From Asterochloris sp. CNOR1 (Eukaryota > Chlorophyta > Trebouxiophyceae > Trebouxiales > Trebouxiaceae), in NCBI GenBank assembly GCA_963969365.1, contig OZ017756.1, positions 2,170,001 through 2,234,000 of the forward strand: DNA of 64,000 bases. Direction: 5' to 3'. A program made the position numbers and the translations under genes. This document shows positions 1-64,000 of this stretch, one piece after another. The notes beneath the pieces are model-generated. The model made no database searches. It had not been told where the DNA came from and was given only the letters and a program-made list of their open reading frames with translations. Position 1 is the first letter of the stretch. Each line of letters begins with the position of its first letter.

Positions 1-48
1 ACTCAACATCCAGTGGCAAGTGTGATCACTTCGTTCACTGCCTCCTCC

Positions 49-361
49 TGCTGCAGAGGATGAGCCTGCCTGCGGTGCCTCTCTGGGGAATATTGCAGCA
101 TTTACCCGGGCCGTGCAGTCCTGGTGACTTGGTCTCAGTGTTGTTTGCTGCAGGATGCTGCCCTGCCTACAGCAGCTCCCTGTGGCACCTTGCAAGTCTC
201 CAACTCAGCTCTACAATTAGTCTGCTCACCTCCCCCCTGCTGTCATGAGCTACAGAGGATGAGAGTGCTGCCGCAACTCTCTGGAGGATTCTCAAACCTC
301 TACCCTGGCCAAACCTTCATGTTGGTTCCACAGACCTCCAAGACTCATTGTGCTGCTGCAG
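49..361 (+). repeat. Tandem decayed copies of the first visible exon edge
   Basis: Three segments beginning near 51, 149 and 250 resemble the live exon edge at about 354-395. Each carries a CTGCAG- or CTACAG-like acceptor followed by a GATGAGGCTGCC-like start. They are roughly 100 bp apart, have diverged and do not keep the downstream reading frame. I read them as dead tandem copies of the acceptor side of the exon beginning at 362. The earlier exons of this gene lie before the window. Confidence 0.55.
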
Positions 362-3300
362 CAGATGAGGCTGCCTACGATGCCCCTCCGGAAGACACAT
401 CTGTCTCCACGCTGGCCCAGCAGATGTCCCAGCTCATCAGGCAGGTGCAGCCCGCGGGGGAGGAGGAACGCACAGCCATGGCCGCCCTCGCCCAGGGCAT
501 TGCAGAGCAGGACGACATGGCGGTGCGCAGCCTGGCTGAGCTGATCGCAGAGCAGGAGCGGGCTGCCGCTGCCAGCCTCGCGCAGGGCATCGCGGAGCAC
601 GTGTGCGGGCCACGGGCCCGGGGAGACCCTGCCATGGAAGAGACCCTGGGAGTGGTGAGCTGCTGGGGTGAACTGGACCTCTGATGCCAGGACCTGATCC
701 CTGATGCCAGGGCTTGATTCCTGATGCCGGGGTTGCAGTCTGGCGCTGCACATCTCATCTGGGTTCTGACGTCTGACCTTCTGCCTATGAGGCATGGCTG
801 GCGGCCCTGGGTGTGGGCAAGCTACCAGGGCTTGTGGTGCCTCCAAGTACTGGTGTTGGTGGTGCAACTCAAGGGAGACCCAGCCAGAGAGCCAATCCTC
901 TAGAGTGGTAGGCACAGTTGGTACAGCATACATGGAGGAGCAAGGTGCTTTACTGCTCGCGGTGAAGCAGGTGCTTTGAGGTGGCAGCACTAGGCATTAG
1001 AGAAGCTTTGCAGGGGGCCGCTGAAGGCATGAGAGAAGTACCGTGCGTGGCCTGGTCGCACATTCGTGTGTGCCGTCCATGGGCTGTGACTGAAAAGGGA
1101 CCCGGTCAAGGATCTTCCCCTGGAGCGGGCGCCCTGACCCGGACAATAGCTAAAGGCCTGCGCTGCTCAAGATGCACTGCCACACTGCTGCAGGTGGAGG
1201 CCTTGTGCCTACAAGCGCTGCCAGCGCTGCACATGCCCCAGCACTTTCAGCTCTTCCTCCTGCTGGGTTGGTCAAAATCTTAGTGCCCCTGCTGCAGGTG
1301 GAGGCCATAGTCAATGCCTGCGAGCGGCGCCAGCGCCGCCGACGCCCCAGCAGCTCCAGCTCGGGCTCCGCTCGCGCAGACAGGATTGTGGAGCTGCTGG
1401 CTGGCCAGGGGGAGGGCCTGGCTGCAGCAGCTGAGGGGCAGGGCAGGCGTACCCCCTCCCCACAGCTGGCACGGGCCATCCAGCTGGCCAATGCAGAGGC
1501 GCAGGCCCTGCTGGAGAGGCAGGAGGAGAATCGGCGCAACAGGCGGCGCACCAAGTGAGTTTTGATAAGCTTCAGCATCTCATGCTTACCCAGGCTTGCA
1601 AGCCGGGCAAGCCTGCCAGACACAAGGCAACACACTGCGTGTCTGGCTGCCTTGTTGACCCACAGTGAGGCAGCGGGGAGCCCCATTGTCTGCCATGCAC
1701 AATCACAGAAGCATTTGCATGCCGCTGAGGGGTTCTGCTGGGCGCCCGAGAACAGACTGCCTGCTCCTCTAGCCGCCAGCGAGCTACTCTATCACTTTTA
1801 CAAGGGCCTGGCAGCTTAGTGGGGGTGCCTGCCACCATGCAAAGCTTGCCATCTGGGCTGTTGAGCCAGTGGCAGGATGTCTAGGCCGCCTGCATGTGCC
1901 TGCCAGGCGCGCACCGGCTTACTGAGACAGGCCAAGCGGCCCCTGCCTCTGCAGGCAGCCTCAGGCAGACGCGCTGCAGTTCAGCCCCCAGGTGCAGCAG
2001 GCGCTGCACCGATACCATTCGCAGAAGACCGGCCGCAGCTCGGGCAACGTACGCAGCCTTAAGAACCGTGCTGAGGGCCACAGGCAGAGGCGATCCAACA
2101 CCCCAGCCAAGCAGCACCTCATTGTGAGCGTCACGATGAGCCATGTCTGGCAAAATGGTGGCCTGACTGGGCTAAAGTTGTGCTGAGCAGTGACGCCTCA
2201 GGGGAGGCCTGCTGGTGGCAGCCTGCTGCATACGCGGCAGCAGCTTGCAGCGGCAGCCCAGGGATTGCTGCCCTCTCATATGATAACAATAGATTTGCCT
2301 GGCCCTATACACCCTGCTCAGTCTGCTTGCCATGGGCCCAGCAGCAGAGTCTGCTGCAGCAAAGCCTCCCCCCCCTCGAGGCCTGGGCACATGATGCGCT
2401 TCTACCATGCCCTGCCTGCAGGAGCAGCAGCAGCAGATCCTGGGGCAGGTTCAGCAGCGCAAGGGCCCCCAGCGGCGGGGTGCCAGCCCTGGGCAGGGCC
2501 GAGACGCCCGCTTGCGCCAGCCCTGGGCGAACTGGCCCCAGAACGCTCCAACGGCCCCCATGACCCCCACCCGCGCGAGGCCCGTACCCATGGACCCCAA
2601 CACAGGCACCCCCCGTGCCATGAGGGTCGGCTCGGACGGCGGCATGTGGTTCACCTCAGCTCCCAGCCACAAGCACACCCACAGCGCCAGCAGCACGCTG
2701 GCTCCTGAGTCAGGGGAGCTGGGGGGCGCTGCCGGGATGGAGGCCCCTCCCTCCGAGCCCGGCACGCCACGAGCGGGGCGCAGCGCATCCATGCCCCGCT
2801 TGGGGCGCCGCCTGTCAGCCCTCCTGGGTCGGGACAACAACAGGGACAGGGCGGGGGATGCTCTGGGTGCGGAGTCCGTCGCGCTCACCCCGCGAGCCAC
2901 CAGCACAACCGCCAGTCGCCCTGGGCCGGCCACAGCTGTGGCAGTGGCGGCCGTGAGGCAAGACAGGAGCGCTGCCTCAAGGCCCGGGTACGGTGCCAAT
3001 GCCAGCAGCGTGGTGGTGTCCCCATTTGCTGCTGCCGCCCAGGCGCAGGCTGGGGGGGAGGGGCTGGAGCCAGGCCCCCGGCAGGACAGCCAGTCGGGAG
3101 GCCTGGTGGGTTCCCTGCTGCGCCGAGGTCGCAGCATGGTACGCAGCGGCAGCCTGGGAGATCGGGCAGGCAGTCTGTCTGGCGGGGCGGCGCCGCTCAG
3201 CAGCGACTCCCTGAGCATGGCGGCCATTGGCGGCAGCCAGGCCGAGAGGGCTGGCTCCTTTGCCCGCCTGCGCCGCCGCCTGCAGCGCAGCAACAGCAGC

Positions 3301-5136
3301 ACCTCGGTGGCCAGCATGGGGCTGAGCCGACTGGAGACCCCACCCAGTCCCAGCTCCTCCGCTGTGCCACAGACGCCTGGCGGCAACACAGGTGTTGGTC
3401 TATATACATTTGAGCTCTGCATTTGCATGAAAGATACCTCTGAGCGCTGCCCTCCCCCTGGCATGTGTCTGCAAGCCTTATTCAACAGGACCCCCCCCCC
3501 AGAGCATGGCACACACGTGCTGCGCATGGGCACCACCCAATGCTTGCTTCTGCAGGCTCCATGCTAAGCCTGGGTCTGACTTGCCCCTGCAGAGCTGGTG
3601 CGGGCCAACAGCAGCACACGATTGGCAGGTGTGCTGGCCAGCATGAAGCGCGGGATGAGCCCCCTGCGGGGGACAAGTCCCTTCCGGCGCAGCAGGGAGG
3701 GTGGCCTGAGCCGGAGGGTCAGCAGGTCATCGCATGACAGTGAGTCCAGCAACCGTCCCAGGGATGTGTTGCGACATATAGGCTTAGGCAGGCAATCAGG
3801 CTGGCAAGCAGCAGGGATGGCACTGCCCAGATGCCTTGACTGCACGGTGCTGTACAATGTCAAAGAAGATGAAAGGCGGGCAGGTGGTGCAGCAGAAGGG
3901 CCCTCAGGACGACAGCCAACAGATCCTCGACCGTTCAAGCAGGCATGTAGCCTGAGAGGCACCCGCCCCCATAAACTGCCCCACTGGGCTGATGCTGAAG
4001 GCACGTACTGATCTGCGTGACATACGACGACAAATCAGGCTCACAGGCCTCCTCTGTGGCCAGGCCCCCTTGCTGACAGTCCAGGAGCAGGGGCTAGCAT
4101 GTGTAGGGAGCGCTCCTCAGCGCCATGCTGTCCCCTCTGAGAGCAGACCCAGGGCTCAGAGGTTATGCAACCCGGCCTTTGCAATGCTTTCCAACATACC
4201 ACTGACCTGCTGTAAACTAGTGCCTCCTGGTGACGGACAATTGTGGGAGCCCGTCAGCCGCCAGCACTTGCAATGCTTGCATTGAATGCCAAATGCCAGC
4301 CTGCCTCCTGTGACATGCTCTTGCTGAGACTTCAGGCCTGGCTACACCCAGAGTAGGGCCCCTCTTGTGCTCGGTGTTGCCCCTGGGCGGGCCATGCCCC
4401 TCCTGGTGAACCCTGGGCTCACCCTGATTGTGATAGGTGGTCACCTCACCACACTGGATCCGTGAGTAGATCCTCCACGTGCGCTTGCAGGTGAGGAGTC
4501 CCTTCCCGAGCCTGTGCCCCTTAGGATGGATGACGACATGCCAGCCCACCACTTCATGCGCCGCAGAATCATGCAGCAGAACCAGCTGCAGGAGTCCCTC
4601 GCCTGCCCGCCAGCGCTGCAGTCCAAGGGCAGCAGCGGGCGGCCACCGGCCCCCCAGGCTGGGCCCCAGGCTCAGGGTGCTGCTGTTGAACTGGGCACTG
4701 GGGCCCAGGCCAACAGCGGGTCCCTGCAGAGACTGCGCTCCAGCTGGAAGGGGAAGCTGAGGAAGTCCTTGACTGGCATGCTGAAGCGCAGCCCCTCGGA
4801 CGCTGAGGGCCCCGTGAAGGTGGGTTACTGGCACCACTGCATGCCGGCTGCAGCAACTACCTGCAGTGGATGGGTGCCGCTCCAAGCCTGATGAAGTGCT
4901 GCTCTCCTGACACTGAGGGTGCAGTGGAGGCGGGCACTCTGCAGGCATCGCTGCCTGTTGGTTTGCAGCATGCAAAATGAGCTGCTCATGGCTATAGACA
5001 GGCTGCAGTGCTGTCTCCGCCTAGCATCTTGAGCGTTTGCTGCCACCACGCTGAGGGTCAGCGCTGCACAAGGGGCGCTGCAGACTTTGAGCATTGCAGA
5101 CTAAGGGGCTGCTGCCTGCAGGCCACCAACAATTGA
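362..5136 (+). CDS. Basic Ser/Arg-rich disordered protein, 5' partial
   Basis: I do not recognise this protein. Exons by phase: 362-600, 1298-1554, 1955-2123, 2422-3391, 3593-3739, 4491-4819 and a tiny last exon 5122-5136 ending in TGA; about 707 residues are visible. The first exon encodes a charged Ala/Glu-rich helix with three repeats of an LAxGIAEQ/LAELIAEQ type, likely coiled coil. The second is Arg-rich with an LARAIQLANAEAQALLERQ helix. The 970-base exon is low complexity (Ser, Arg, Pro, Gly) with repeated R-[SR]-x-S patches such as SMPRLGRRLSALLGR, RRGRSMVRSGSLGDR and FARLRRRLQRSNSS. The next exon continues with SPFRRSREGG and RRVSRSS. The patches resemble basic phosphorylation or microtubule/membrane-binding segments, which is inference only. 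An alternative end reads through the 4819 donor to a stop at 4891. The gene continues upstream of the window. Confidence 0.6.
1185..1260 (+). repeat. Decayed copy of the start of exon 1298-1554
   Basis: The sequence from 1185 (CTGCTGCAGGTGGAGGCC) repeats the acceptor and first codons of the live exon at about 1290-1306, then diverges through GCGCTGCCAGCGCTGC-like sequence. It lies about 105 bp upstream in the intron and seems to be a dead tandem copy. Confidence 0.6.
4880..5100 (+). repeat. Decayed copies of the donor edge of exon 4491-4819
   Basis: The live exon end near 4790-4830 (CGGACGCTGAGGGCC, then a donor) is echoed near 4905 (TGACACTGAGGGTGCAGTGG) and near 5048 (CACGCTGAGGGTCAGCGC). 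The spacing is about 110-145 bp inside the downstream intron. Neither copy keeps the reading frame. Confidence 0.45.
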
Positions 5137-5752: not shown

Positions 5753-6770
5753 TCAGGTGCTGCGGTACTCGCCCTTCTCATCGAGGTCGTCCTTGTGCCT
5801 GTGGGTCTCATATGAGCCTGCAACACAGCGCTGGGTAAGTGGTCTGCTAGAACAAACCAGCTTGCACACTGCAGGTATGGCAACAACACAAACAGCAACA
5901 GGTCAACCATGCAAAAGAGATTCTCTCAGAAGCTCACCTGAGACACCGTGCTGGCCGCCGCCAGCCCCACCGGTGGTGGCCACGCCAGTGTTGCCCTGGG
6001 GCTGGCCAGTCACTCCCTGGGTGCCCATGCCGCCACCAGTACCACCCTGGTTGCCCTGCAGCGCAGCAGTCAAGTGCATCAGTTTGACATGAGGTGACGG
6101 TGTTGTTGAGGGCCAGTCTCCTAACAGTGTGGTGGGCCAACTGAACGTCAAGGATTCTAACTAACTTTGAGTGGGGCCACAGTGTGCAGTGGCAGGGACC
6201 AAGGAAACAGAAAGGCCTGCAGACCGGTGACTCACCAAATGGTGGTGGCCGGTGCCAGTGTTGCCTGTGGTGGGGTTTGGGCCAGCGTTGGCGCTGCCAG
6301 TCTGGGCCCTGTTCTCCATCTTGTTGCCCTGAAACAAACACAGGAGGTGATGTCTGAGGCAGCAGATCAGTTGGGTGCAGCAGATGTTGCACAGGAAGTC
6401 ATGTCAGGCAGATCTCCCAGTGCAGGCGCAGGTATAGCCTGTTGAAGCCAGGAGTGAAAGTGGACCCCTGGTGCAGGGTGCATCTTGTGGCAACCCTTCA
6501 CCCCATCAACCCCTTGAAAAGTGTCGTTAGACATGCACCGACACTGCTGGACTGCAAGGGAGGGCTGCAGAGCAAGCCCAGCGGATGAAGCTTCCGGGCA
6601 GCTGCGTGCAGCAGGCCCCTGCGGCGGAGCACACCCAGACAGGCAGGGCAGTAGCAGTCCGCAACTCAGCCGACGGGAGGGCTGGATCCGAAAGGCGAAT
6701 TGATCTCGGTGCAGCAGGTCACCTGGTTGGCCATGGCACCGCCTGCTGCTTGCTCTACGCGTCCGGCCAT
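5753..6770 (-). CDS. LEA-like Gly/Asn-rich hydrophilic protein, minus paralogue
   Basis: Four exons read on the minus strand: 6770-6723, 6328-6236, 6055-5938 and 5817-5753, giving 107 residues. The first exon encodes MAGRVEQAAGGAMANQ. The middle is low-complexity Gly/Asn/Thr/Gln sequence with NTGTGHHHL and a GGTGGGMGTQG run. The C-terminus is SYETHRHKDDLDEKGEYRST. There is no hydrophobic segment and no signal peptide. The composition suits a hydrophilin or LEA-type desiccation protectant, which is inference and not a family match. The plus-strand gene starting at 7741 ends in almost the same motif (SYETHRHKDDLDEKG), so the two are divergent duplicates. Introns sit at different places in the two genes: here one splits the codon just before SYETH. 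The start ATG opens the only exon compatible with phase. Confidence 0.8.
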
Positions 6771-26523: not shown

Positions 26524-26602
26524 GATCGGCCCAGCAGGGTATGCACCCCAAGCCATGATGGCGCTGGAGGGGAGCAGCCAACCCAGAGGCCAGACAGAGG
26601 GC

Positions 26603-27025: not shown

Positions 27026-34116
<7,091 letters not shown>

Positions 34117-49242: not shown

Positions 49243-52200
49243 TTAGACGCCAGGCCGTATCAACTCCGCAACAGAGTCATATGTGCCTAGCACTGCTCCT
49301 ATGATGCCAAAAGCCACAAGCAGTGCATCCATCGCCAGCGTAGCCCTGCTGGCAACATGTGACGATGTGAGAACCCCTTTTTTGCAAGTCATGCCAAAAC
49401 GCAGCGGCAGCTCACCAGCCTCCTTCTGATCTGAAGATGAGCATGTGACATAAGGCTGGGACTGTGAACGACAGAGTGGCACATGCACCAGAGCCAATCA
49501 ATGAAATGAAGCTGCCAAAACCTGCAGGTATGTCACTGGACATCAGCAGCCTGAGGATGTGGCCTCAGGCACAGACGTAATGGCGAGGCCAACCCAGTCC
49601 TCAGAGGTCTGCTGGGGCTGACATAAGCTGGCGAGCTCACCAGGGACTGCAACCGCCACCACTGTGGCTGTGAGCACCAGGGCAGTCCTGATGACACAAA
49701 AAGTTACATGCTTGCTGAAACTGCCGTACTTTTTACTGAACCACTCCTGCAGGGGAAGGGGAGCAAAGCTGGTAAGATGTGCAGCCAGCAGCTGCACAGG
49801 AGGCACACAAGTCCACTTCAGAAGATCAGGCAGATTTGTTTCACCAGGAGCTTGCAACCAGGCTTTACAGCACAGAGGAGATTGTGTTGGCATGCTTACC
49901 TGGGCCAGCAGGCCTCTTTCTATCAGTTCATACACTGGGACCTACAGCCATGCAAGACAAGAGGCTGGGCGCCCAAATAACTCTCCGTAAGCTGCTGCCT
50001 GTGCACACAATGCGGCGGTGTGCGCACATGATGCAGGGTCTGGCAGGTGTGCAGGGCACGATTGGGTGACTGGCATGCAGCAGGTGAGTCCCAGTGTGAC
50101 AACCGGGGCTGCTCACCATCATTATGGGAAAGGTCAGGAATAGACCTAGACACAGCAATATCTGCAGGGGCAGCATTCTGTGTCAGTGCGAGGAACGTGC
50201 AGTGACAGTCGTGACTGTCAGCCGTCATCAAATCTGTTTGGGATCAATGCCAGCTGGTCGCTGGTCCCTCCTCATTCATGGACTCTGAGCAAAACGAGGA
50301 ACAGTGCAGGGTTTTGCTGGAAAGCGCACATCCATGTATCCATCACTTGCACAGCCTCCTTGCCTGCGCAGGCTGCTCACCTTGACAAGCGTTGTGGACC
50401 AGTCTGCAGGCAAGTTGAGCGTGATGATGTCCTTGGTGTCATCCCCAAAGGCAGCATAACCGATCTGCACAGAGCACAGAGATGTTGCCCCATCTGCTAG
50501 AGGGGCAAGCACAGCAGCAGTGGCATGTCATCTGCGCTTGTGCTGCAGGCCTGCACGCTCAGCAGTAGTGACATGTCATCTGCACTCTTGCTGCAGGCAC
50601 CTGTGTGCACCATGTGCCACCAGGACTGCAGCCAGCACTGGCAAGTATGGTGGCCAGCGCCCCTTGACGCAGCGTTCAAGCTGAATGCGCATGCCCAGCA
50701 TGTGTACTGCAGCAGAGCAGGCGTTGAGGATGGCCAGGGTGCTGCTTCTGTTTCTGGCAGATGGCCTTTACATGCAGATGTACAAGCGATGGCAGTATTA
50801 CCGCCCCAAAGCACAGGAAGATGGCTGAGCTGTGGAAGGCATCAGGCACAGCTCACTGGCATGTGCTGGCAGAGCGCTCACCGCTCCAAGACTCACTGAC
50901 TTGGCTGCATGTGTGCCTTGGGACTCTCGTCATGCAGGCCGGCATATATTGGCAGCATGAGCAATGTGCTGTGAGCCAGGCATGACTTCAGCAGCAAGCT
51001 GGCATTTGCTGGCAGCGTGCTCACCGCCCCAAAGCCCAAGAAGATGGCTGTGATAAGGGCAATAGTCCCGGACAGCACGGGCCCAAAGTGTTCACGCTCC
51101 TTCATGCTGGACTCAATGGGCAGTATCATGCCCACGCCCTCATAGCAATACTGCAGGCAGGGCATATGTAAGGCACCAGCATGCTGCCACACTCTGCTGC
51201 AGTGATGTGTTGACGCCCTTATAGCAGTACTGCAGCAAGCGTGCCTCAGGGCCTGGCTGCTGAAGCCCATCTCCTGCCCAAGCATCCACCAGCTGCACCG
51301 CTTTGCAGACCTTGGCAAATGCCTCAATTGCACCCCTTTGCGCCATTCTGCAGCTGCACTTTTTTTCGCTTACCCTTTGCAGGAGTTTGCAGGAGATCCG
51401 TGACATGTCATGTGCAGCAGACAGCTGCAGAGGACGATCTCCATGCAGAGCTTTGCTGTTGCCCTCCTGCAACTCCAGCAATGGCAGGCAGCAGGCCGCG
51501 CTGCGGGCTATTGACTGTTCTGAGACCCTGCCACCTTCAGGAAAGCAGGCCTGGGTAGAGCCCGCGCTGCCAGGCAGGCGACAGAGCAGCTGTCAACATG
51601 CTGCAAGCAGTCAGCTCACTATGACGACGCCAAACAGGAAAGGCAGGCTGCCCAGGGAGCTGAACAGCCTGATGTGCGTCCCCTTCTCCAGCCGGCCAAA
51701 CTCGTCCCACACCACCACCAGGATGCCTGCAGCATGGCAGACAGGGACTCGGCAATTCTTCAAGAGGCTCTCAAGCAGAGATGACATCCCGCAGCAGTAT
51801 GGAAAAAGTACTGGCCAGCTGGTGCCCTGCATGGCTACAGGGCATGGCCATAGAGCATGTCATGCTGGAATCATATCTGCAGCTGCAAAGGGGAGAAATG
51901 GTGCCTCAGGGCACAGGAGGCAGGGGGCCTGCCGGGTGGTGAGGCGAGGAGCCTATGACACATCGATGTCAAGCTCGTGTGCAGGCCTGGCATCCAGCGG
52001 GGCAGGGACAGCAGCACACCAGGCAGTTAGCCTGGAGCTCCTGCAAGTCTGGTGGGCTGACTTCTTCTTTGGCAGGCCAGGCAAGGCACACCAGAGATGT
52101 TGACAGCCTCAGCAGTCTAGCTGAAGGGCGCTGGGAGTGCAGCCCCATCGATGGCCAGGGTGAGAAGAGCAGAGGCCGCTTGCTGAGCCCAGATCAGGAC

Positions 52201-54724
52201 GTGCCTGGCAAGTGTGCTCCCCAGACAGCAAACATGTCAGCTGCTGGAGCGCACCACAGATATTGGCAGCGTCGGCGATCAAGCTGAAGGGTGCCAGCGC
52301 GTGCACCCCCCTCAGCATGGCCAGGGCCACCAGTATGGGGCCTGCCGCCAGGATAAAAAAGGCGGGGTCCTTGTTGGTCAGCGTGGTCAGATTCTGCCCA
52401 ATGAAAATCAGATACGCCACGCAAAAGCCTGCAGGAGAGAGGTGCGCTCCAAATGCAAACATGAGCTTGCCAGATGAGGTGTGGTAAGAATCTGGAGGCC
52501 ATGCAAGACCCTGCAGCAATTCAAACGCAGCTCAGCACTGTGGCTTGCTTCTGCCCAAGCAGGCACCCGAAAGAAATTCAAGGGCGGCTGTATCATGCGT
52601 TGTCGTGCATACCTTCAACGTGAACACTGTACCAGAACATGGCATGGGCAAGAACTCTGGGTGCCTGACCACATGGCTGCCTGGTAAGCTGCAAGTTGCT
52701 TAAGGGCAGTCCACAAGTGCCAGCTAGAGGCCTAAGGGCTCAGCACTGTGATGACACTCTGGAGCCCCGACGCGCGGCAGGTCGCAGGAGCCTGCAGTCA
52801 TCAGGCTGTGCAGTTGTCCGGCAACCTACCCATCTGGGACATGATGAGCAGCAGCTCCACGAGGAGCTGCCCTGGGCGCCCTAGAGTGTGGCGCACCACC
52901 TCACTGTAACTGACCACCGCTGCAGCCTCCAGCCGCCGCTTGCACTTCACCTGCACAAGCGCGTGCAGGAGGCAGCTTTGAGGAGTGCACTAGTGGCAAC
53001 AGGAAGGTGCGCTGCCTGCTGCAGGCAGGCAAGGACAGGCTCGGTACCAGTGTCAATGTTACGCTGGGCAAGGAGTTGATGTCTACCAGTGCCAAGCAGC
53101 CCAGGAACTTGGAAGCTCAAATGGCTGCCAGCATGTCGCCAATCAACATGAAGACACCTGTCCCCTTGGGTGCAGCATGCTGCCAGTCAACATGGATGGC
53201 ACCCAGTCTCTGCAGGCCGCCCATGCTTGTTGCTGGCATGCATGGCTCTTTAGGTGCAGTCTGCTCCTGGAGGAAGCGGGCCAGCATGCAGCACGCACAA
53301 CTCAAGCAGCTTCTGACAAGGGGCCCTGTCAGAGCACGGCCTCTGTATGGTATTGAAGCATGGAGGCCCCTGGCACATGCACACACCTCTGCAAAGCGGC
53401 ATTTTGCTCAGGGCTTCAGCATTGCTGCCATGCAGCATGCCCTCCTCAGTGGCATGAGCCCCACCAGCAGCATCATGCAGTGCAGGTTGAGGCCAGCCAC
53501 GAGGAGCATGAAGATGCCACCCTGTAGCAGTCCAGTCCTCTGAAAGGCATGGGGCAGGCCCAGCACGCCCGCCCCCACGAAGCTGATGAAGAGGTTGCCT
53601 GCACAGCACACTTGTTGCGTCTCAGTGAGTCAGGAGATGATCAGCAGAGTCTGCATGACTCCCCCATCAGCAGGACCGCCCAACCTTCAAGGATTTGGCG
53701 GGGACTCACCACCGCTGCGACCAGCATGCTGCCAGCCACAGCGCTGCACATCTTCAGCACACTGTTCCAGTGCAAACTCACCAGCCACTCTGAGCTTTGA
53801 GCTGCGGCCGCCCTCCTCCTGCAAGCAGGCAACTGCACTCCTCAAGATTGCGCCACCCTGTGGAGCAGTGCCTTCCAGGCAACAGTGCCTTCCAGGCAAC
53901 ACCCAGCTGCAAAGCCATGGGACCAAGTGGCGCAGGCGTCTGGCTTGCTATTTTGCAGTGGCGTCAGGGGAGAGGGGGGGAGCCAAGCACCACCAAGGAT
54001 GCCAGCTTGTGCCACTGCTTGCAGGCGTCCATGGCAGGCGTCACTGCCTGTTGGTGGCCACCCGCCCTGCACCGTTGCCATTGCATCCAGCTGATGGTCT
54101 GCAGTCACAGCTGCAGAGAGGCTGCAGGTCCAGATACGACAGCACCAGACGCCACCTGCGCTGCTTGATTGATGCCACATGTCTCCAGCACAGCAGGCAG
54201 ATGCTGCTGGCTTTGTAAGTGCAGGATGAGACAGCAATGCTTGCCTTGATGGCGACACTGAGCTTGACATCATTGTCTGCATGGTGCAGCTGACGCAGGG
54301 GATCTGCCCTCAATATGTGCTGCCTGCCAAGGCCTTGAGGGCCACAGTGGCCACAACAGGTACATCGGTGGCCAGCTGCCCTACTTTGTGCAATTGCCAT
54401 GTGTGACCAGCACCCTGCCTGCTGGGCACTGCTGGCACTAAAGGATCAGGCAGCTTGCCTCCACAATGACATTGGCCTCCACATCACTGTCAGCATGGCG
54501 CAGCAGGTGCTGGGCTGTGTGGTCATCCTCTACATCCCTGTTGGACCCTGCGCCCTCCTCTGAGAGCGCCAATTGGCCATCCAAGGAGCCCTGCAGGTGG
54601 CGAGGCAGGCTGCATTTCTGTGCATGAGGTGCATTTCAGGTCAAAGTCAAGCAGACCTTACCGCAGGCTCGATCTGCTTGTTGTACTTGGCTTTGCTCCT
54701 GGGGTGGAGGTTGTCTGAGGGCAT
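49243..54724 (-). CDS. AAAP-family amino-acid transporter (vacuolar AVT3/SLC36-like)
   Basis: Fourteen minus-strand exons: 54724-54662, 54590-54459, 53818-53782, 53598-53465, 52950-52830, 52428-52255, 51726-51620, 51150-51025, 50464-50381, 50161-50117, 49941-49900, 49746-49641, 49521-49416 and 49345-49243; 459 residues, normal for the family. The soluble acidic N-terminus (MPSDNLHPRSKAKYNKQIEP, then EDDHTAQHLLRHADSDVEAN) precedes the hallmark first membrane helix GNLFISFVGAGVLGLPHAFQ. Then come VSYSEVVRHTLGRPGQ, VAYLIFIGQNL, SSLGSLPFLFGVVIYCYEGV, GMILPIESSMKE, IGYAAFGDDTKDIITLNLP, GLFLTFPIMMVPVYELIE and GSFISLIGSGACATLSFTVP. About ten or eleven helices are expected. Proton-coupled export of neutral amino acids from the vacuole is inferred from the family. 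One intron (after 54459) has a GC donor. A 69-bp intron precedes the last exon. Confidence 0.9.
50480..50600 (-). repeat. Tandem duplication of about 60 bp in a transporter intron
   Basis: GGCATGTCATCTGCGCTTG then TGCTGCAGGCCTGCAC (from about 50523) is repeated as GACATGTCATCTGCACTCTT then GCTGCAGGCACCTGTG (from about 50570). It lies in the intron upstream of exon 50464 and carries no coding frame. Confidence 0.6.
50795..50830 (-). repeat. Decayed copy of the donor edge of transporter exon 51150-51025
   Basis: CCGCCCCAAAGCACAGGAAG then ATGGCTG matches the live CCGCCCCAAAGCCCAAGAAG then ATGGCTG at 51024-51050 (complement of the AIFLGFGA end plus donor). It lies about 225 bp downstream in gene orientation. 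Confidence 0.65.
51195..51245 (-). repeat. Decayed copy of the acceptor edge of transporter exon 51150
   Basis: On the minus strand TGCTGCAG then TACTGCTATAAGGGCGTC parallels the live CTGCAG then TATTGCTATGAGGGCGTG. It would encode YCYKGV against YCYEGV. It lies about 80 bp upstream of the live exon in gene orientation. Confidence 0.7.
54240..54312 (-). repeat. Decayed copy of transporter exon 54590-54459 end
   Basis: On the minus strand this reads LRQLHHADNDVKLSVAIK followed by GCAAGC. It parallels LLRHADSDVEANVIVE followed by GCAAGC in the live exon. The unusual GC donor is copied as well. Phase rules out its use between the two live exons. Confidence 0.6.
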
Positions 54725-54824: not shown

Positions 54825-57800
54825 ATGGCTGGCCTTGACCCCACAAAGAAGCGCAGCAGCGGGTTCTTCAAGTCGGTGTTCGGCGGAGCTGGCAAGGACG
54901 GCAGGTTGGATGAGAACGTTTCGCAGGTACTTCCTTTCAGTGTGGAGTGGTATCTGTGAGACTCTCAACAGGTTGTAAGCATCTTGATAAAATCTGAACT
55001 GAGTCTCACACCTAGGTGCACCTCTTGCGCTGCCACTCCAACAGCAGGCTCACAAAAGACTCAACACATTGGACGGACCGCAGCAGCCAACATGGGTCAG
55101 CTCATGTCACAACTGCCTGCCTGCCTCACGCCCTGACACGAATTTTGCCCCTCCAGACCCTGCCTGCCTGTTGTCACTCCTCCTCCGTGCCGCCCTGCAG
55201 TCTGGCACCCCCCACTCCACAGCCAGCGCCCAGAATGGGGGCGACTTCCCCGCGGAGCAGGGCTCCACGCTGCAGTCACAAAACAGCGGCGCGGACGACA
55301 TAGCCCCCAAGACGCGTTCCCCTGAGAAGGAGGCCAGCCTGGACGGAGCTGCCATGGAGCGCACTGCTGCGGCCAGCCAGAACTCCACCCTGGCTGCTGC
55401 GCTGGCGGAGGCCAACGCGCAGAGCAGCGAGGCCACTCCGGCACACGTTTCTGCAGGTGGGAGAGGGTTTCAAGGCCGTGTCTGTCGCTGCTCTGCACAG
55501 ACAGCTTGGGTCTAGCCAGTGGGTGAGTCAGATCACATGCTGCATGCCTCAGCAAGCGCCCTGGAGTGCACTGCGGAAGCCAGGGGCAGCCAGAGGCAGC
55601 CATGCAGGGCAGTCATGTGATGACCATGCCCATCTGTGCAGGTGGGAAAGCTGCATGCCACAGTAAGCATGAAGGCTGCGCCAATGCAAGCTGAGCCTGC
55701 AGGCTCACACACCCAGTGTTCCAGCCAGGGCATCCGGGGCCCCTTTTCAGGTCTTCACCTTGCATGCTGGCCAGCTGGTGGAGCCAATGCATAGAGCAGC
55801 CGGTGGCTGAGGGCAGCTCTCAGCGCTGGCTCAGTCAACCTGACACTGCTTCACAGCAGCACCTCAGCTTCAAGGCCAGCAACATGAAGGTGTGCACTGC
55901 ACAGCTTCTGGACCTTGGGCTTACTGTGGTCTTACCCGCAAACCTGTCCTTCCTGCAATGCAGGCGCCCAGCAGGTAGCCACTCAGGACAACAATGAGAG
56001 CGCCTACAGGAATAGCTGGCAGTATGCTGCTGAAATGACGCGCAAGGCTGAGATGGAGGCTCAGATGGCGGAGCTGAAATCCCAGGAGGCCTACAAGTGG
56101 TGCGTCGCTGGTTTTGGGGGTTGTAAGGCTGTTGCAAGGGCTGATAAGTGCTTGTAAACACAGTTGCAGAGCAGGAGTCTCAGTTGGCCTCCCACGTAGT
56201 GAGTGGCCTGTAAAGAGGTCTGTCTTTTGGAAGTGCTCAGAGCACCTTCAACCAGTTGTGTTGCCCAGGTATATCAGGAGACATGCCAGTGGGAAACGGC
56301 CTGCTTGGGGTTCAGATCTGGGTAGAGAGGCGCCCACTGCAGCCCTTTAGAAGGGGCAATGTGTACAGCTCAGTTCAGGAGCATGCCAGTAGTGAGTAGC
56401 CTGCCCTATACAGGGCGCGGGACACTGCGCCTAGTGGCTGGCAGGCGCTCCTGCATGCGAGATGCCTGCGGATGGTGGTCATTGCCTGATCAACAGCGGA
56501 GCTGACAGTGTCTAAAGAGGCCGATTCAATGCACCAGGGTCGCCCTGTGCACCGTGCTGAACCACTGCATCCTCATGAGCAATGCTGCCGTGTAGCCTGC
56601 TGAGGGGCGTAGAGGCTGCCAGCCTGCAGAGAGGCGCCAGCAGGCCCCATGTGGGTGCCCCCGCACGGAGGCTGCACACCTTCGCATGACGGCCTTACAG
56701 GCAGCAACTGCCCATGCAGGAGGCCCAAAACTTGCGATTCATCTGTGGCTTTCTTTGCTGCATCCTGCAGGGCCTCAGAAGCTGCCCAAGCGCAGTGCTG
56801 CAGAGGGCCATGCTTGCTGCAACTGGCTGCACATAGCCGCGAAGCCTCTAGAGCCGAGCATGGCAACAAGTCTTGCAGTTCAGCTGATCATTGAAACTCA
56901 TTGCAGCTGTGCAGGGACGCGAAGGCTGCCGCTTTGTGGGAAGTCGAAGCTGAGGAGGGTCATGCCTGCTGCTACTAGGCCAAGGCTGCACACTTACAGT
57001 TGTTGTGCAAGCCCTGCAGGGCGCCAATGGCCACAAAAGGCCGGCGCAGCGCCAAGCATTGCAGCCCAGCTGGCATGTAAATGCTGGTGCATCCTGCACC
57101 AAGCATGCTGTTTGTTGTCCTGCAGCCTCCAGAGAGCAGAACTCCGCTTTCATCTTCCATGTTCAAAGCCCAGCCACAGTTTCAAGCTCGCTGCGTCCCT
57201 GCAGGGCAACAGAGGCTGCCAATGCGCAGCGCGAAGCTGAGGAGGCCCATGCCCGATACGATCGGGCCAAGGCACGTCTGCGTGCACTGGAGGAGGAGAA
57301 GGCCCAGATTGCAGACAAGGCAACTGCGCTGGACCGCAGCCAGCAGTCCATCACGGCCAAGGAGGCAGACGTGAATGTGCTGCAAAGGTGAGGGCGGCTC
57401 ATCAACCTGAATTTAGTGAATTTGTTGGGTTGAGCGGGTCAGCATGGCTCTGAGAAGTTTGCTTTGGCCAAGGTGGCCAGCTGCAGCCAGGGACCCATAA
57501 CAGCATCAGCAGTCGAATGTGGCAGTTGCCGCAGACTTGTGATGTTGGTCTGGGGTTGGGTGGTTCATCGTGGGTCTAATCACTGTAGGGTGAGACCTCT
57601 AGAGCTGCATGGGATTGCTTCGTAAAGTCTTCAAGATTCTAAGCTCGAGACATGTCATGTGTTGTCGATGCCTGCAGGGAAGCTGAAGATGCGGCGGCGA
57701 TTGCTAGGACACGCTACGACGAGGCCAAGCAGCAGCGCGAGGTGGCTGAGGCGAAGAACCAGAGCTTCAAGCAGCTGGAGCAGCAGCACCTGTCCAGTGA

Positions 57801-60800
57801 GTGGCTCTTCCTGCAGACATGCCTTGTGGGCCACCCACCTGGTGGCAATGTTGTTCACTGTAGCCAGTTGGGTGCTGCCTTATCTACTGGTGGCCATCGC
57901 TGCACCATACATCACAGCCATGGATGCTGCCTTGCAATTTGACTTGTCCTCAAGATGCTGCACATGCCCTGCATGGAATTCTCCGTGGCCCCTTCTGCTC
58001 TTATGAAGGCGCCTGCGCCTGCAGAGCTAGATTCTGCAGGTCAGTGTGCTCTTTACTGGCCATGCTGGCCATGCAAGAGGAGGTGGTCCCTCAAGCCCCC
58101 TTTGCGTGCCACTGCAGCAATTCACACTCACTGGAAGTCCTTATTGAGTGGTCCACTCCTGCTCCCTGGCTAGATACTCATCTGATGTCTGCCCCTGTAG
58201 CCCTGGACAAGCAGAAACAGCTGTCTCTGCAGCAGTGACACAGCTGCAGGGACCTGACAGCTACAGTGCCCCCATGCTGAGGATGGGGACGGTCTGCCCC
58301 TGTAGCCATGGCAAACACATCTGCCGCTTGACCTGACACTGAGCTTTGCAAGTATGCCCCCTGCAGCCTTGCACAGGCAGGAGGAGGTGGAGGCCCAGCT
58401 GCATTGCATTCAACCCGCATGCACTCATATCTGTGTCTTAACCTCACACTGAGCTCTGCCCTGTGCCCCCTGCAGCCCTGGACAAGCAGAAGGAGGTGGA
58501 GGCCCAGCTGCAGGCGCTGTCCCTGGAGCACCAGGAGCACAATGAGAGGCTGGAGAAGGGGCGAGGCCTGGTGCAGGTACAGCAAAAGATACCTGTCAGG
58601 GTTCAATATGCGGCCTACCTGTGCAATGCATGGAGACACACCGCACAGCTCGCTTGAGATGGTGCTGGTGCGGCACATTCTGGTGCCTCTTTTGGGGCCT
58701 TGTGTGGCATGCCAAGTTTTTTACTTCCCTCAACATCCTGGAGGGGTGTACTGCCATCCAGCAGCATTAGGCACGCCTGGATCTTTGTGTATCTACAGGT
58801 CTGCCGCTTGTCGAGTAGCTGCCCTGCAACCAAGCGGCAGACCTACAGGTGCACAGGCTACCGCCAGCAAGCTGACATCCAGATGCAAAAAGGATGCCTG
58901 GGCCATCCCTTTCCCCTCTGAAGGGCTGCATTGCCCGGGTCACAAGATGCCAGCCATGCTTCACAGGCTGCGCAGCAAGCCTGCTGGCAGGTTTCAGTGG
59001 TACTGCAGAACAACCATGGCCTGGCACTGTGGGCTTCAGCTTCTGATGCTGAGGCGCTGCAGTAGCTTGAGTGCAGAGTAGGCTGTTGCACTACTCCATT
59101 GGGCAATATTCTGCTTCCTCTGACTCCAGGGTCATGCTGCTTGCCCTGCAGGCCCGCAACATGACGGTGGGTGAGGCCCAACAGCTGGTGGAACGCAAGA
59201 GGCAGGAGCTGGCAGAGGCCGAGGCCGTCCTGGAGTCGCGGCAGCAGGAGCTGGCGGCTGCGGTGGTAGGTCTCCCATTTGCAAATCAGTGTGCAGGCAC
59301 CCCTCCACAGGATGGAGCGGAGGGCTGCATGCTGCTGGTGATGTGCGGCGCTGCAGGCACGTGACCTGCTGGTTTGCGGACACCATCACTGTTGTTCCTG
59401 CTGCACTTACCTTGGTCACTCTGCAATGAGCAGGCAAGCATGTGCTTCCCACAGGCGATATTGTGCCAACCTTGCTCACCGTCTATGCCCTGCCTTGCGC
59501 ACAGCCGCTGCAACCTTCTGTCACCCCTATTGCCTGCAGAAGCAGGCCCATGAACATGAGGAGGCCCTGAATGCTAAGACAGAGGAGCGGGACACGCATG
59601 AGCAGACAGTCGCATCAACGCGCAGCCAGGTCACCTCCCTGCATGAGCAGCGTGATGTCGCTGCCCAGGAGGCTGCTGCAGCCCAGGCCCTGATCAGAGA
59701 CAAGGCGGACGCAGCCAAGGTGGAGCGCGAGAGGTGAGCAATGTGGCTGATGTCCTGGCCGACACCCAGACGTGTTTATTTATCTTGATTTCCAGGGAGA
59801 CACCACGTTGGGCGCCTCAAAGCCCGCGCGCAAAAGCACTGCCTAAGCTACGACAGAGCCAAAGGGCATTGTACCCCAGCCTCGCAAGTACTGAACACCT
59901 GGAAGTGGCTGAGGTCCACATCCAGCAAACACATCTGCATGCACAGGAGGGGCTGCGGCTGTGGCTCCTTGCACGCTGGGTCAAAATCCTTTTCCCTCGC
60001 AAGTGAGGAGGCGCCCTTTCGTTACTTCTGTACAATCTACCCCTTCAGCGCTGCTGCCTCTGTCAGAAAGTGCTGTAGGCACCTACTGCCTGTGCTGGAG
60101 GGCCATGCCACTTTCCTTCCTGCTGCCCTTCTTGTCACCTTCCAACTGTACCACTACCCTGCAGAGCGCTGCAGCAGAAGGCTCGGGTGGACCAGGCCCT
60201 GATCGAGCTGGACCAGCAGCGTGCGGCCCACATGAAGCAGGACTCTGAGCTGCAGGAGGCACGGGCAGTGGCCGAGAAGAACGCGGCCAACATCCAGCCT
60301 GTCAGGTAGTGCCACATTGCTGTGTTGATGTTGGCTTTGGCCCATCTGAAAATAGCCCCCTCAGGTCCCTGCACTTCAAAGCAAGCTGCCATCAACATCA
60401 GGCCATTTGACTAGCCATGGATCTGGGGTCGCATGGGACACTGGTGGCTGTGTACTTGTCTGAGTGCTGCTGGCACCTTTATATGGCATGTGTGGAGGAG
60501 CTGTAGGGTGGCTTTAGGGTGATTTGAGTGCCTTGACCAGCAGCGAATGCCCCTGTTACATGGTGCCTTGTGCTCGCAATTGAGGACACAGCCCTATTTG
60601 AACATGCCATGGTCCTGCTGTGTTGCGGGCCATCGCCTTCAGAAAGCTGCTTGAGGCCCTGCAGCCAAGGGTACTTACCACATGAGGAGTCTGTGCTGCA
60701 TGAATCACAGTAGCTGGCCCCACAACACTCGCCAATTCCCAGGATGCCGTCAGGCTGCCTCCATGGGGCTGACGCCCGCCAGGCAATCACCAAGTGTGTC

Positions 60801-61961
60801 ACTGTTTTCTTACAGACAAGTCCCTCACTGATGGCGTCTGCCTGCAGGGGTGGGGCAACCACCTACTCAGCTCCAGTTGTGACTCAACTGCCTGCGATGC
60901 AGGGATGAAGCCAACTTCAATGCCAGGCAGGCCAATGCGAAGTATGCAGAGGCCCAGGAGAAGAGTGAGGCCTGGCTCAAGGCTAAGGGCGAGGCACAGG
61001 AGCACAAAGGGCGCTGGTCAGAGTACTGGAACCAGGCCAAGGTGGGCAATACACTGACTGCCTGAGTAGCTGAGCTGAGACATCAGAGGGCACTTTTGGT
61101 GGGTCTGCCCATGGCGTCGCTGAAAATGGTCATAGCCTGGGAAACCCACAGGGTGCTGCTGCTGCTGTGATCAAGAGCATCAGGAGAAGCCAAGGCGGGC
61201 AGGACAGTGGGATGGGCACGGTGGCGGGTGGCTGAGCTGGGACCTCAAGCGGGCACTTTAGGGGGCCTGCCCGTGGCTTTGCTGGGTTTGGTCCCTACTG
61301 AGGAGGCACAGACAGCTGCTGCTTTGTAAAAAAAATGGTGAGCTGAAGAAGAAGTCCAGATGAAGTTGGGCAATGACAGCATGCTTCTGCTGAGCTGGCA
61401 CACAAGCAAGCGTCTGCTGAGCTGGCACACAAGCGGAGCTGCATTCCCTCTGCGCACGCAGCCTCCCGGAGGCACAGCGCTTGCCCCACTGCTGCCTGCC
61501 TGTCGGCCGGCCGAGAGCAAGTTGGCACCCCGGTTGACTCAGACTTCAGGAGCAGTCGTGCTCCTGTCTGACATGTGCTGCTGCCTGCAGGCCAGCATGC
61601 GGTTACTGCTCCACTCACCAAACAGTTCCTGCTCGCCTGTCTGCCTGCAGCAAGCCGGCAACCTCTGCCACCCAGGAGTCCAGCAGCGCTTGTGGTCTGG
61701 TTTGAGGCCAAACCTGGTGCCGCCTGCAGCCAGCAGCCTGGCATGCACAACCAGCACGCACTTTTTCTTGCCACCCCACCACAGCTGACGTTGCCTGGCT
61801 GCCTGCCTGCCTGCCTGCAGCAAGCCGGCGACCTGGGCGATTCTGAGTCCAGCAACAAATTCAAGAGCCTGGAGGACAAGTTGGCCGAGGTGGGGCAGGG
61901 CCTCAAGGACAAACTGTCGCCGCGAGGAGGGTCTCCCGGCGGCGCGACGGCCCACATGTAG
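54825..61961 (+). CDS. Coiled-coil protein with repeated exon modules
   Basis: Exons 54825-54926, 55201-55456, 55964-56099, 57205-57387, 57678-57796, 58476-58576, 59152-59265, 59540-59733, 60165-60305, 60903-61041 and 61821-61961; 541 residues. The start MAGLDPTKKRSSGFFKSVFG is a short basic amphipathic segment that could bind membrane or microtubules. Residues about 35-120 are a disordered Ser/Ala/Glu linker. The rest is nearly continuous charged helix: YRNSWQYAAEMTRKAEMEAQ, AQREAEEAHARYDRAKARLR, RTRYDEAKQQREVAEAKNQS, LVERKRQELAEAEAVLESRQ, QALIELDQQRAAHMKQDSEL and FNARQANAKYAEAQEKSEAW. Exons 4, 5 and 10 begin with related EAxxAxAxYxxAK modules, so exon duplication built part of the coil. A Gly/Ser tail ends SPGGATAHM. 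A structural scaffold is likely; no family is recognised. Confidence 0.78.
56765..57000 (+). repeat. Two decayed copies of exon 57205 acceptor edge
   Basis: The live CTGCAGGGCAACAGAGGCTG then CCAATGCGCAGCGCGAAGC is echoed at about 56766 (CTGCAGGGCCTCAGAAGCTG then CCCAAGCGCAGTGC, with GCCATGC beyond) and about 56908 (GTGCAGGGACGCGAAGGCTG then CCGCTTTG, GAAGCTGAGGAGG, GGCCAAGGC). The second copy has an in-frame TAG before GCCAAGGC. Both are inside the 1.1-kb intron upstream of the live exon. Confidence 0.75.
58190..58420 (+). repeat. Decayed copies of exon 58476-58576
   Basis: The live CTGCAG then CCCTGGACAAGCAGAAGGAG then GTGGAGGCCCAGCTG is preceded by CTGTAG then CCCTGGACAAGCAGAAACAG (58195 onward), CTGTAG then CCATGGCAAAC (58300), and CTGCAG then CCTTGCACAGGCAGGAGGAG then GTGGAGGCCCAGCTG (58365 onward). 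Spacing is about 70-110 bp. The first two have lost the AG context of a normal CAG acceptor (TAG instead), and the third is frame-broken soon after. Confidence 0.8.
61575..61695 (+). repeat. Decayed copies of the last-exon edge (61821)
   Basis: CTGCCTGCAG then CAAGCCGGCAACCTCTG with CCAGGAGTCCAGCAGCGC (from about 61641) mirrors the live CTGCCTGCAG then CAAGCCGGCGACCTGGG with TGAGTCCAGCAACAAA. A shorter edge (CTGCCTGCAGGCCAGC) is near 61582. Confidence 0.7.
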
Positions 61962-62985: not shown

Positions 62986-63956
62986 ATGGCCGCCATCTTC
63001 ATAATGAAGTCAGACCAGAAGAGTTCTGACGCAGGCAGAGTAGTTCACACCCACCCAAATGGTATGGGTGCTGTCGTGATTGCTTTGCAACTTAGCGCCG
63101 GGCCCGGCTCAAGGTTCATGCACTCTGCCCCTGGGGCAGGTGACAGATATGAAGGTGAATTCAGCGAGGGCATGGTGAACAGCAGAGGCATTTATACCTG
63201 GGCCAATGGTATGTCTCGTGGTTCCTTTGGGACTGAATGCTGGTCCTGACTCAGTGTCCATGCACCCTGCAGGGCAGCTGCCCTGCAGGAGGCAGGTATG
63301 AGGGCGACTTTAAAGAGGGTAAAGAGAGCGGCAGAGGAGTCAAAACCTGGGCCAATGGTATGTGCCATGTGGTGCCTTTGAACTGAGCGCTGGCCTTGCC
63401 TCAGTGTCCTTGCACTCTTTCCTGTTAGGAAACAAGTATGATGGCGAGTACAAAGATGGTAAAAAGCATGGCAGAGGCGTTTTCACCTGGACTGAGGGTA
63501 TGTGCCTCATGCTTCTTTTGGTACTGAGTGCTGGCCCTGACTGAGCTTGACAGTGTCCATGCACTCTGCTCTACAGAAGGCAGGGTCGGCCCTTACTTGA
63601 GGTATGCAACCGTATGCATGCCTCCTATGAGGGTAGCCTCATATGAGGGCGAGTACAAGAATGGCACCATGGATGGCAGATGTGTTTTCTATGGCGTTGA
63701 CGGTGCGTGCGTGCCATGTGGTTGCTCTAGGACTGAGCGCTAGCCCTTACTCTGTGTCCATGCACTCTGCCCTGACAGGGACTAAGTATGAGGGCGAGTC
63801 CAGAGAGGGCAGAGGAGTATTCACTTGGGCTGATGGTAAGTGCCACGTTGAGCCCCTCTGAGTGGTGGCTGGCTATGACCCCACATGCATGTCTTCTCAT
63901 TGTGTACTACAGGAGAACAGTTTGTCATAGTACTGACGGAGAAAAAGACGGGGTAG
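62986..63956 (+). CDS. MORN-repeat protein, possibly continuing past the window
   Basis: Exons 62986-63061, 63140-63208, 63289-63357, 63429-63497, 63577-63702, 63779-63835 and 63913-63956. After MAAIFIMKSDQKSSDAGRVV come five MORN motifs, one per exon: RYEGEFSEGMVNSRGIYTWA, RYEGDFKEGKESGRGVKTWA, KYDGEYKDGKKHGRGVFTWT, SYEGEYKNGTMDGRCVFYGV and the shortened KYEGESREGRGVFTWA. MORN repeats form beta-hairpin arrays found in ciliary, cytokinetic and phosphoinositide-linked proteins. All internal introns are phase 1 and 71-80 bp. Three consecutive exons are exactly 69 nt. The fifth exon is longer because its normal acceptor is lost and an upstream one is used. The last exon given ends in TAG but looks like a frame-broken MORN unit, so the real transcript may skip it and continue outside the window. 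Confidence 0.8.
63062..63912 (+). repeat. Tandem MORN exon-plus-intron cassettes (about 150 bp)
   Basis: Each intron begins GTATGT or GTGCGT, contains an (A)CTGAGCGCTGG(C)CC-like core and ends with a CAGTGTCCATGCACTCTGC-like tract before the acceptor. Exon and intron therefore duplicated together as one unit. At least six related introns are visible (63062-63139, 63209-63288, 63358-63428, 63498-63576, 63703-63778 and 63836-63912), with decreasing conservation towards both ends. Confidence 0.8.
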
Positions 63957-64000
63957 AGCAAGCAGCTCTGCTCGTCCAAGCGTGAAGGCTGCCCACAGGT

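Follow-up and report, generated by a model that had tools for sequence, protein, structure and literature searches.

Tandem exon duplication is a known kind of in-frame exon multiplication. Earlier work reportedly calls internal duplications that carry splice signals widespread, and is said to count duplicated introns and exons in use rather than dead intronic edges. In the parts of the potato RdRp report that deal with its duplications, a tandem duplication across the intron-exon structure produced a duplicate that became a new intron and exon, and a separate 83-bp tandem duplication lies entirely within an intron of that gene (PMC4974935). The passages on intron gain in a Drosophila study attribute intron gain and sliding to regional tandem duplication, with proto-splice sites creating new introns (PMC2891723). 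Our literature search returned no description of dead intronic exon edges as a genome-wide habit; the search was incomplete, and one may exist. Here we describe an alga whose introns hold such decayed edges.

The window is the whole 64,000-nucleotide stretch of DNA that was analyzed. A gene finder was self-trained on 254 kb, made up of the window, 10 kb of flank, and 18 further 10-kb pieces, one per chromosome-size contig. It returned 327 introns with sharp splice signals in this sample (consensus AG/GTGAG at donors and TGCAG/G at acceptors in the HMM gene models), and two training starts gave a nearly identical outcome. Eleven HMM gene models overlap the window; a further gene, with an array of MORN exons at ~63.0–63.9 kb, was missed by the gene finder, and some first exons in these ab initio models are doubtful. 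Each junction probe comprised 75 bp on each side, and an edge copy is a match in the junction's own adjoining intron that crosses the splice site with z>4. Introns yielding a target shorter than 60 bases were dropped from the junction-probe tests, those below 110 bp before one of the counts, and those below 361 bp for counts of edges versus interior points.

Junction probing of the 254-kb sample revealed an edge copy at 66 of 610 junctions (37/308 acceptors and 29/302 donors), versus 1/610 with swapped introns, 2/610 with inverted sequence, and none with shuffled or reversed sequence. Intronic exon-edge copies are real and also occur outside the window; across the whole sample, 32 of 61 multi-exon genes have them. 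The first-pass annotation had described a window-wide habit of introns holding decayed neighboring exon edges with their splice sites, in at least seven of 12 genes. This description holds: seven of the 11 models are affected (g0, g4, g5, g6, g7, g9, and g10), intron matches to flanking exons number 66 against none in shuffled introns, and the habit extends beyond the window. An earlier run with different random nulls gave 38 acceptor and 29 donor copies (n=67). In most distance bins, direct 10–14-mers less than 400 bp apart outnumber both their inverted counterparts and those in an order-4 Markov control, and inverted 10–14-mers lead only at 1–10 bp and in two small bins; a few long arrays probably dominate these counts, which were not used for spacing. 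Direct, nearby, same-strand copies exceed the inverted and swapped controls, as expected of local tandem duplication remnants.

The window and its flanks contain 20 edge alignments, 18 of which have their live junction inside the window. A rerun adds g3 to the affected window models; z near 4 varies with the random nulls. g11 is a flank gene. The 18 junctions and the exon array are as follows.

48..391 (+): g0 acceptor 362; live edge 353–391, intronic copy 48–86, AG retained; z 7.8
1158..1351 (+): g0 acceptor 1298; live edge 1263–1351, copy 1158–1242; z 13.4
4776..4970 (+): g0 donor 4820; live edge 4776–4855, copy 4886–4970, GC replacing the live GT; z 9.5
12813..13083 (+): g4 donor 12888; live edge 12813–12896, copy 13000–13083; z 4.7; doubtful 6-bp first exon
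15935..16168 (+): g4 acceptor 16146; live edge 16077–16168, copy 15935–16029; z 8.0
17168..17330 (+): g4 acceptor 17320; live edge 17311–17330, copy 17168–17187, 19/20 identical; z 4.1
19745..20063 (+): g4 donor 19799; live edge 19745–19841, copy 19892–19988, another at ~20001–20063
23593..24120 (+): g5 acceptor 24065; live edge 23990–24094, nearest copy 23878–23982, others every 103–113 bp; z 38
25149..25463 (+): g5 acceptor 25453; live edge 25378–25463, copy 25149–25246, additional copies
27750..28056 (-): g6 (kinase) donor 28027; live edge 27959–28056, copy 27750–27841 without donor; z 9.0
37881..38182 (+): g7 acceptor 38143; live edge 38072–38182, copy 37881–37996 without AG; z 17.5
39472..39636 (+): g7 donor 39494; live edge 39472–39558, copy 39549–39636; z 6.4
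41134..41614 (+): g7 donor 41173; live edge 41134–41185, copy 41329–41380, then 71-bp tandem units; z 15
50826..51050 (-): g9 (amino-acid transporter) donor 51024; live edge 50972–51050, copy 50826–50907, GTGAGC intact; z 8.6
54173..54514 (-): g9 donor 54464; live edge 54395–54514, copy 54173–54300; z 9.7
56891..57273 (+): g10 acceptor 57205; live edge 57181–57273, copy 56891–56986; z 13.0
58187..58512 (+): g10 acceptor 58476; live edge 58421–58512, copy 58311–58403, another from 58192; z 28.3
61629..61854 (+): g10 acceptor 61821; live edge 61799–61854, copy 61629–61685; z 10.2
63034..63915 (+): MORN-repeat exons arrayed in tandem and separated by short introns; units mostly 140–150 bp, three exons matching PF02493

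A copy occurs for 58/351 on the intron side of the junction, versus 5/636 on the other side, in line with the earlier rule that acceptor copies lie upstream and donor copies downstream of the live exon. Given that hardly any surviving copy is found on the exon side, the spliceosome appears to favor the exon-proximal site. Spacing ranges from 64 to 390 bp, with a floor of ~63 bp imposed by the test, and thus extends beyond the 60–200 bp first claimed. Introns with an edge copy have a median length of 590 bp, versus 327 bp for those without, which agrees with the claimed intron lengthening, but longer introns also give more room for matches. The positional duplication profile peaks at the exon edge, reaching 10.8–13.6% in the 20 bp nearest acceptors and donors, and drops to ~2% some 80 bp into exons. 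Judged from sequence, edge duplicates would lengthen introns and leave the protein unaltered.

The copies differ from duplicated whole exons in their side and in their frame, with a shift divisible by 3 in 23/67 edge copies versus 20/25 distinct exon-exon local duplications. The latter, together with the MORN array, which is in-frame exon multiplication, bear out the claim that exons are multiplied in frame. Codon changes in edge copies comprise 88 synonymous, 313 nonsynonymous, and 6 stops, against 85, 319, and 11 in simulation. The coding signal follows the same pattern, with a score of 0.375 for live edges, 0.168 for copies, 0.181 for simulated neutral decay, and -0.292 for introns. The copies look non-coding: they are frame-neutral, mix synonymous and nonsynonymous changes at random, and appear to carry the coding signal of neutral decay.

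Past tandem duplication, exon-proximal splice choice, and neutral decay of the intronic copy together probably explain the edge copies. Segments of ~60–400 bp would have been tandemly duplicated many times in the genome's past, roughly ignoring gene structure. Where such a duplication spanned a single exon-intron junction, survival of the gene would depend on splicing staying with whichever junction adjoins the remainder of the exon. The second copy, an exon edge with its splice site, would end up within the intron, which gains one unit. This copy would then decay neutrally, and the live edge would remain constrained. With a single free-drifting partner, edge copies would stay recognizable longer than interior copies, making edges stand out. 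The copies, their excess over controls, their position, their decay as non-coding sequence, and the accompanying interior duplications were observed; we infer that the event was tandem duplication, that exon-proximal site choice was the filter, and that slower decay produced the edge excess.

Local direct duplications occur at 11.6% of sample points in introns, 10.3% in exons, and 5.2% in intergenic DNA. Duplicated points amount to 35/176 at acceptor edges, 23/175 at donor edges, 33/508 in intron interiors (taken two per intron, hence non-independent, which makes the p-values of this comparison optimistic), and 3/120 in intergenic DNA, a ~2.5-fold excess of edges over interior. Edge copies belong to a broader local duplication that fills the interiors of introns as well, which tells against the specificity for exon edges first proposed. 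An edge-seeking mechanism is unnecessary, since simulations in which the live copy decays more slowly yield an excess of 1.2-fold (paralogue-like constraint) to 2-fold (frozen live edge). The observed excess is larger than that simulated with paralogue-like constraint, and tandem units are rarely clean; both run against our explanation. Such units are seldom visible because the aligned length is often well below the shift, with a median ratio of 0.71 at ≥85% identity (seven pairs) and 0.39–0.67 in older classes with at least 36 pairs.

The age structure is anomalous. Pairs with a shift below 50 or an aligned length below 40 were dropped, leaving 292, or 257 after overlap removal, of which only seven are young (identity ≥85%). 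One row (shift 31, identity 1.00, at ~40.5–40.7 kb of the window) was a self-alignment artefact; it did not enter these counts, and taking it out did not alter the conclusion from interior pairs. Density per unit divergence is 42 at ≥85% identity versus 532–1291 per class between 65 and 85%; the youngest pairs are 13 to 31 times rarer than the 70–85% classes, which makes the 'steady' mechanism of the first-pass annotation doubtful. Its overall interpretation survives for live-edge duplicates, their intron side, and their non-coding decay, but not for edge specificity; exclusive use of the outer splice site is putative. Exon-part minus intron-part identity is -0.019 (95% interval -0.048 to 0.006), versus +0.04 to +0.065 in simulated constrained ageing, and the change ratio at third codon positions is 1.02 (interval 0.87–1.19), versus ~1.4 simulated at f=0.7. 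That exon parts are no more identical than intron parts, and that third positions show no excess, also weighs against our explanation. Because young pairs are few, divergence is about the same in exon and intron halves and at all three codon positions, and the live edge seems unaltered, ageing may have been non-gradual, through an ancient burst of 60–400-bp tandem duplication, now nearly stopped, or error-rich copying at birth; we regard this as unlikely. Genome-wide frozen synonymous sites were rejected as the cause of the anomaly, since third positions (0.817) equal introns (0.818) in the one usable paralogue segment, on C6. The substitution spectrum has no strong C-to-T skew, and a RIP-like bias was rejected.

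Alternatively, the copies could be functional and kept by selection, whether as alternative splice sites (acceptor or donor) or as mutually exclusive exon edges. Splice scores fall within the live range for 27/38 acceptor and 18/29 donor copies, and stops are slightly scarce (6 versus 11.2 ± 3.1 simulated). However, a good score means little because sites reaching at least the 5th percentile of live acceptors occur in introns at 8.3 per kb; only 6/67 copies have an open reading extension to the live site whose length is a multiple of 3, and codon changes and coding score match neutral decay. We consider function distinctly improbable. Selection retaining acceptor copies was rejected: TGCAG persists in 28/38, close to the fraction of 0.72 predicted when a single copy drifts freely (p 0.86), a value derived from interior pairs keeping TGCAG in 89/173 (111/207 before removal of short shifts and overlaps). 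Neither counter-selection of donor copies (17/29 retain GT, versus ~0.69 expected; p 0.23 or 0.32) nor a difference in retention between acceptor AG and donor GT (p 0.056) was established.

Duplication might instead be targeted to junctions through transcription or splicing, for example by R-loops, or by a CTGCAG palindrome that promotes recombination at acceptors. The acceptor-edge count relative to the interior exceeds the slower-decay simulation, and introns are rich in CTGCAG (3.6 per kb). Yet interior and exon-only duplications are common, donors are enriched too though their consensus lacks CTGCAG, and the excess shrinks under strong constraint on the live edge, leaving targeting a slim prospect. 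Dead acceptors were rejected as the source of the CTGCAG richness, as TGCAGG occurs at 2.15 per kb in sense versus 2.46 per kb in antisense introns.

Intron birth or movement is a very improbable origin. Duplicated AGGT could make introns (the Rogers model), or repeated acceptors could let the boundary slide, and the splice consensus suits proto-splice sites. Homology between donor and acceptor regions of the same intron is nevertheless at chance, with 5/314 at rank 0 of 100 and ~3 expected; old births would be invisible to this comparison. Among the best candidates from window positions 1–40,000 searched against the alga's own genome, seven short or paralogous matches were found and no introner family. 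Finally, an artefact of low-complexity sequence or of ab initio models, which did miss the MORN gene and left some first exons in doubt, is scarcely credible given the near-empty controls, full kinase and amino-acid-transporter domains in two of six scanned models (g6 and g9), and the near agreement of the training starts.

If the pattern is general, about one junction in 10 in this alga records how its intron grew, and the origin of intron length becomes countable. The duplicated sites would be natural experiments on spliceosome site choice, and the apparent lack of young copies calls for an explanation, either a burst that can be placed in time or an atypical mutational process.

The alga resembles the Drosophila cases described in the passages cited above in having tandem duplications with exonic sequence, one copy of which becomes intron, and differs in having no excess donor-acceptor homology within an intron (PMC2891723). 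With the potato RdRp duplications, as set out in the parts cited, it shares local tandem duplication carrying a splice site and exon edge; there a new intron and exon resulted, whereas the alga's duplicate decays inside the old intron, at roughly one junction in 10 (PMC4974935). The MORN array likens the alga to tandem exon duplication, since it multiplies exons in frame, whereas each edge copy includes a single splice site and the copies have no frame preference. Duplications spanning a splice site are already known as a kind of event; their density, their one-sidedness, and the scarcity of young copies are less expected.

The 56.4-Mb genome comprises 21 contigs, 18 of them chromosome-size; it is alga-like, and the genes of the window are intron-rich. 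Gene models were built ab initio by a purpose-written small hidden-Markov gene finder trained on 254 kb (the window with 5-kb flanks, plus a 10-kb piece of each of 18 contigs). Training from two different starts nearly converged (327 versus 323 introns, identical signals), with a donor consensus of AG/GTGAGY and an acceptor consensus of (Y)CTGCAG/G; the first start, used for all later counts, gives a median intron length of 377 bp. The acceptor core CTGCAG is also a palindrome, with a density in the 254-kb sample of 3.6 per kb (introns) and 2.0 per kb (intergenic DNA), against ~0.3 per kb calculated from base composition alone. Twelve models (g0–g11) lie in or around the window, g11 outside it. 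Six models were scanned with Pfam: g6 has a full kinase domain and g9 an amino-acid-transporter domain, the match of g3 falls below the family cut-off, and g4, g8, and g10 have no domain match. The neighboring, opposite-strand models at window 5753–6770 (-) and 7741–9227 (+) have the near-terminal stretch SGSYETHRHKDDLDEKG in common and are likely an inverted gene duplication.

Introns hold decayed duplicates of adjoining exon edges, splice site included (edge copies). We aligned 75 bp from each side of every predicted exon–intron junction to its own adjoining intron, using 60 random crops from introns of other genes as the null and calling alignments that crossed the junction at z > 4. This revealed edge copies at 37/308 acceptors and 29/302 donors. 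Controls (n = 610) gave one match in swapped introns, two in inverted, and none in reversed or shuffled introns; against these, the 66/610 for own introns bears out the first-pass annotation in so far as introns contain copies of neighboring exon edges. At least one edge copy is present in 32 of 61 multi-exon genes; outside the window, 15 of the 18 stretches sampled carry one. Among the 20 edge alignments listed for the window and its flanks, 18 have the live junction inside the window, carried by g0, g4, g5, g6, g7, g9, and g10; with 7 of the 11 models overlapping the window affected, the earlier count of at least seven of twelve genes was fair. The shift between live edge and copy is 64–390 bp, the floor of ~63 bp being set by test design. 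A shorter-probe test agrees: 60/312 acceptors and 41/312 donors beat all 60 nulls, as did 31/312 intron and 34/488 exon interiors, with a chance expectation of ~1 in 61.

Duplication is not confined to exon edges. With sliding probes, 11.6% of sample points in introns, 10.3% in exons, and 5.2% in intergenic DNA show a local direct duplication; inverted matches reach ~1% per side. The profile is highest on the exon side at acceptors and donors alike (10.8–13.6% within 20 bp), compared with ~3–9% in introns and near 2% in exon interiors. In the edge-type test, random intron-interior points scored 10/254 and 23/254, and intergenic points 3/120. The resulting edge excess is ~2.5-fold (58/351 edges versus 33/508 interior points, p 5e-6, an optimistic value with two interior points per intron). 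For introns of at least 361 bp and a fixed 300-bp target, copies lie upstream of 35/176 acceptors and downstream of 23/175 donors, and on the wrong side of 3/320 acceptors and 2/316 donors (p ~4e-22). The placement first described, acceptor copies upstream and donor copies downstream of the live exon, thus holds at 58/351 versus 5/636 on the other side, although this one-sidedness is partly unavoidable because wrong-side copies would mostly land in coding sequence.

The edge copies look non-coding, in keeping with their earlier description as dead. Exon-part differences are about equal across codon positions (205/800, 176/804, and 192/795). Codon changes number 88 synonymous, 313 nonsynonymous, and 6 stops, matching the 85, 319, and 11 obtained by mutating live codons randomly with the observed spectrum. 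Coding scores are 0.375 for live edges, 0.168 for copies, in line with 0.181 for simulated random mutation, and -0.292 for introns, the live edge outscoring its copy in 48/67 pairs. Shifts are divisible by three in 23/67 edge copies versus 20/25 distinct exon–exon local duplications. AG is retained in 31/38 acceptor copies (p 0.57 for neutral decay of one copy) and GT in 17/29 donor copies (p 0.32), a neutral-decay level given that TGCAG is also well retained in interior pairs (89/173). Twenty-seven of the 38 acceptor copies score like live acceptors, and introns contain 8.3 acceptor-like sites per kb regardless of copies.

From these sequence comparisons, the most likely origin is tandem duplication over one junction, with the exon-proximal edge kept in splicing and the other drifting. 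Such a duplication would create two edges; the spliceosome would keep the one adjoining the rest of the exon, leaving the protein unchanged and the intron one unit longer, and the unused edge would drift. Exon definition is known in other eukaryotes and, with the mostly short exons predicted here, would favor the exon-proximal edge. Edge pairs would also stay detectable for longer because the live partner is constrained. Averaged over equal ages, simulated detection of interior pairs is 0.40; for edges it rises to 0.48 if constraint is that of one real paralogue pair and to 0.81 if the live side is frozen, and the ratio grows with age (0.73 versus 0.48, then 0.20 versus 0.11 in successive bins). 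The observed excess is closer to the frozen-edge simulation, and therefore an edge-seeking duplication mechanism, a possible but unlikely contributor, is not needed beside slower decay of the live edge.

Two results speak against this ageing explanation. In simulated ageing, identity of the exon half exceeds that of the intron half by 0.04 to 0.065, versus an observed difference of -0.019 (interval -0.048 to 0.006), and the third-position change ratio is ~1.4 (at f = 0.7) versus an observed 1.02 (0.87 to 1.19). Synonymous sites are not generally frozen, since third positions resemble introns in a 950-bp piece of g7 (window 36369–37340, introns included) whose 79% identical copy on another contig, C6 (L022 1630–2589), has diverged like a coding paralogue (introns 0.818; codon positions 0.855, 0.918, and 0.817). 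Any of three things would explain the mismatch: edges placed wrongly, weak constraint on exon ends, or fast change of the copy at or soon after its birth.

The duplications are mostly old. Of 257 distinct pairs, selected for a shift of at least 50 and an aligned length of 40 or more, just 7 reach 85% identity, or 42 pairs per unit divergence, against 552 (80–85%), 797 (75–80%), 1291 (70–75%), and 532 (65–70%); about 10% of older pairs may be chance matches, judged by inverted matches. Young pairs comprise 5/60 edge, 3/97 intron–intron, and 0/17 intergenic pairs. They are scarce although detection is best for them (0.91 or more in the simulation's youngest bin), so the process does not look like the steady lengthening mechanism first proposed, unless copies already differ when they arise or the assembly collapsed near-identical ones.

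Recent intron birth from a duplicated AGGT is disfavored as the source, as within an intron the donor region and the acceptor region show no homology beyond chance (5/314 at rank 0 of 100). Exon multiplication by in-frame copies, also anticipated, does occur, as in an array missed by the gene finder:

Window 63034–63915: MORN-repeat exon array with short introns, unit mostly 140–150 bp

Its apparent donors, such as GGTATGTGC, are unlike the genome's usual GTGAG.

Tandem duplication across gene structure is already known. It is described over intron–exon structure in potato (PMC4974935), as is intron gain through duplication in Drosophila (PMC2891723), and a review (PMC3488318) refers to Zhuo 2007 and Gao and Lynch 2009. 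Here it probably left dead exon edges inside introns, distinctive in their frequency (~11% of tested junctions), their one-sidedness, and their mostly old age.
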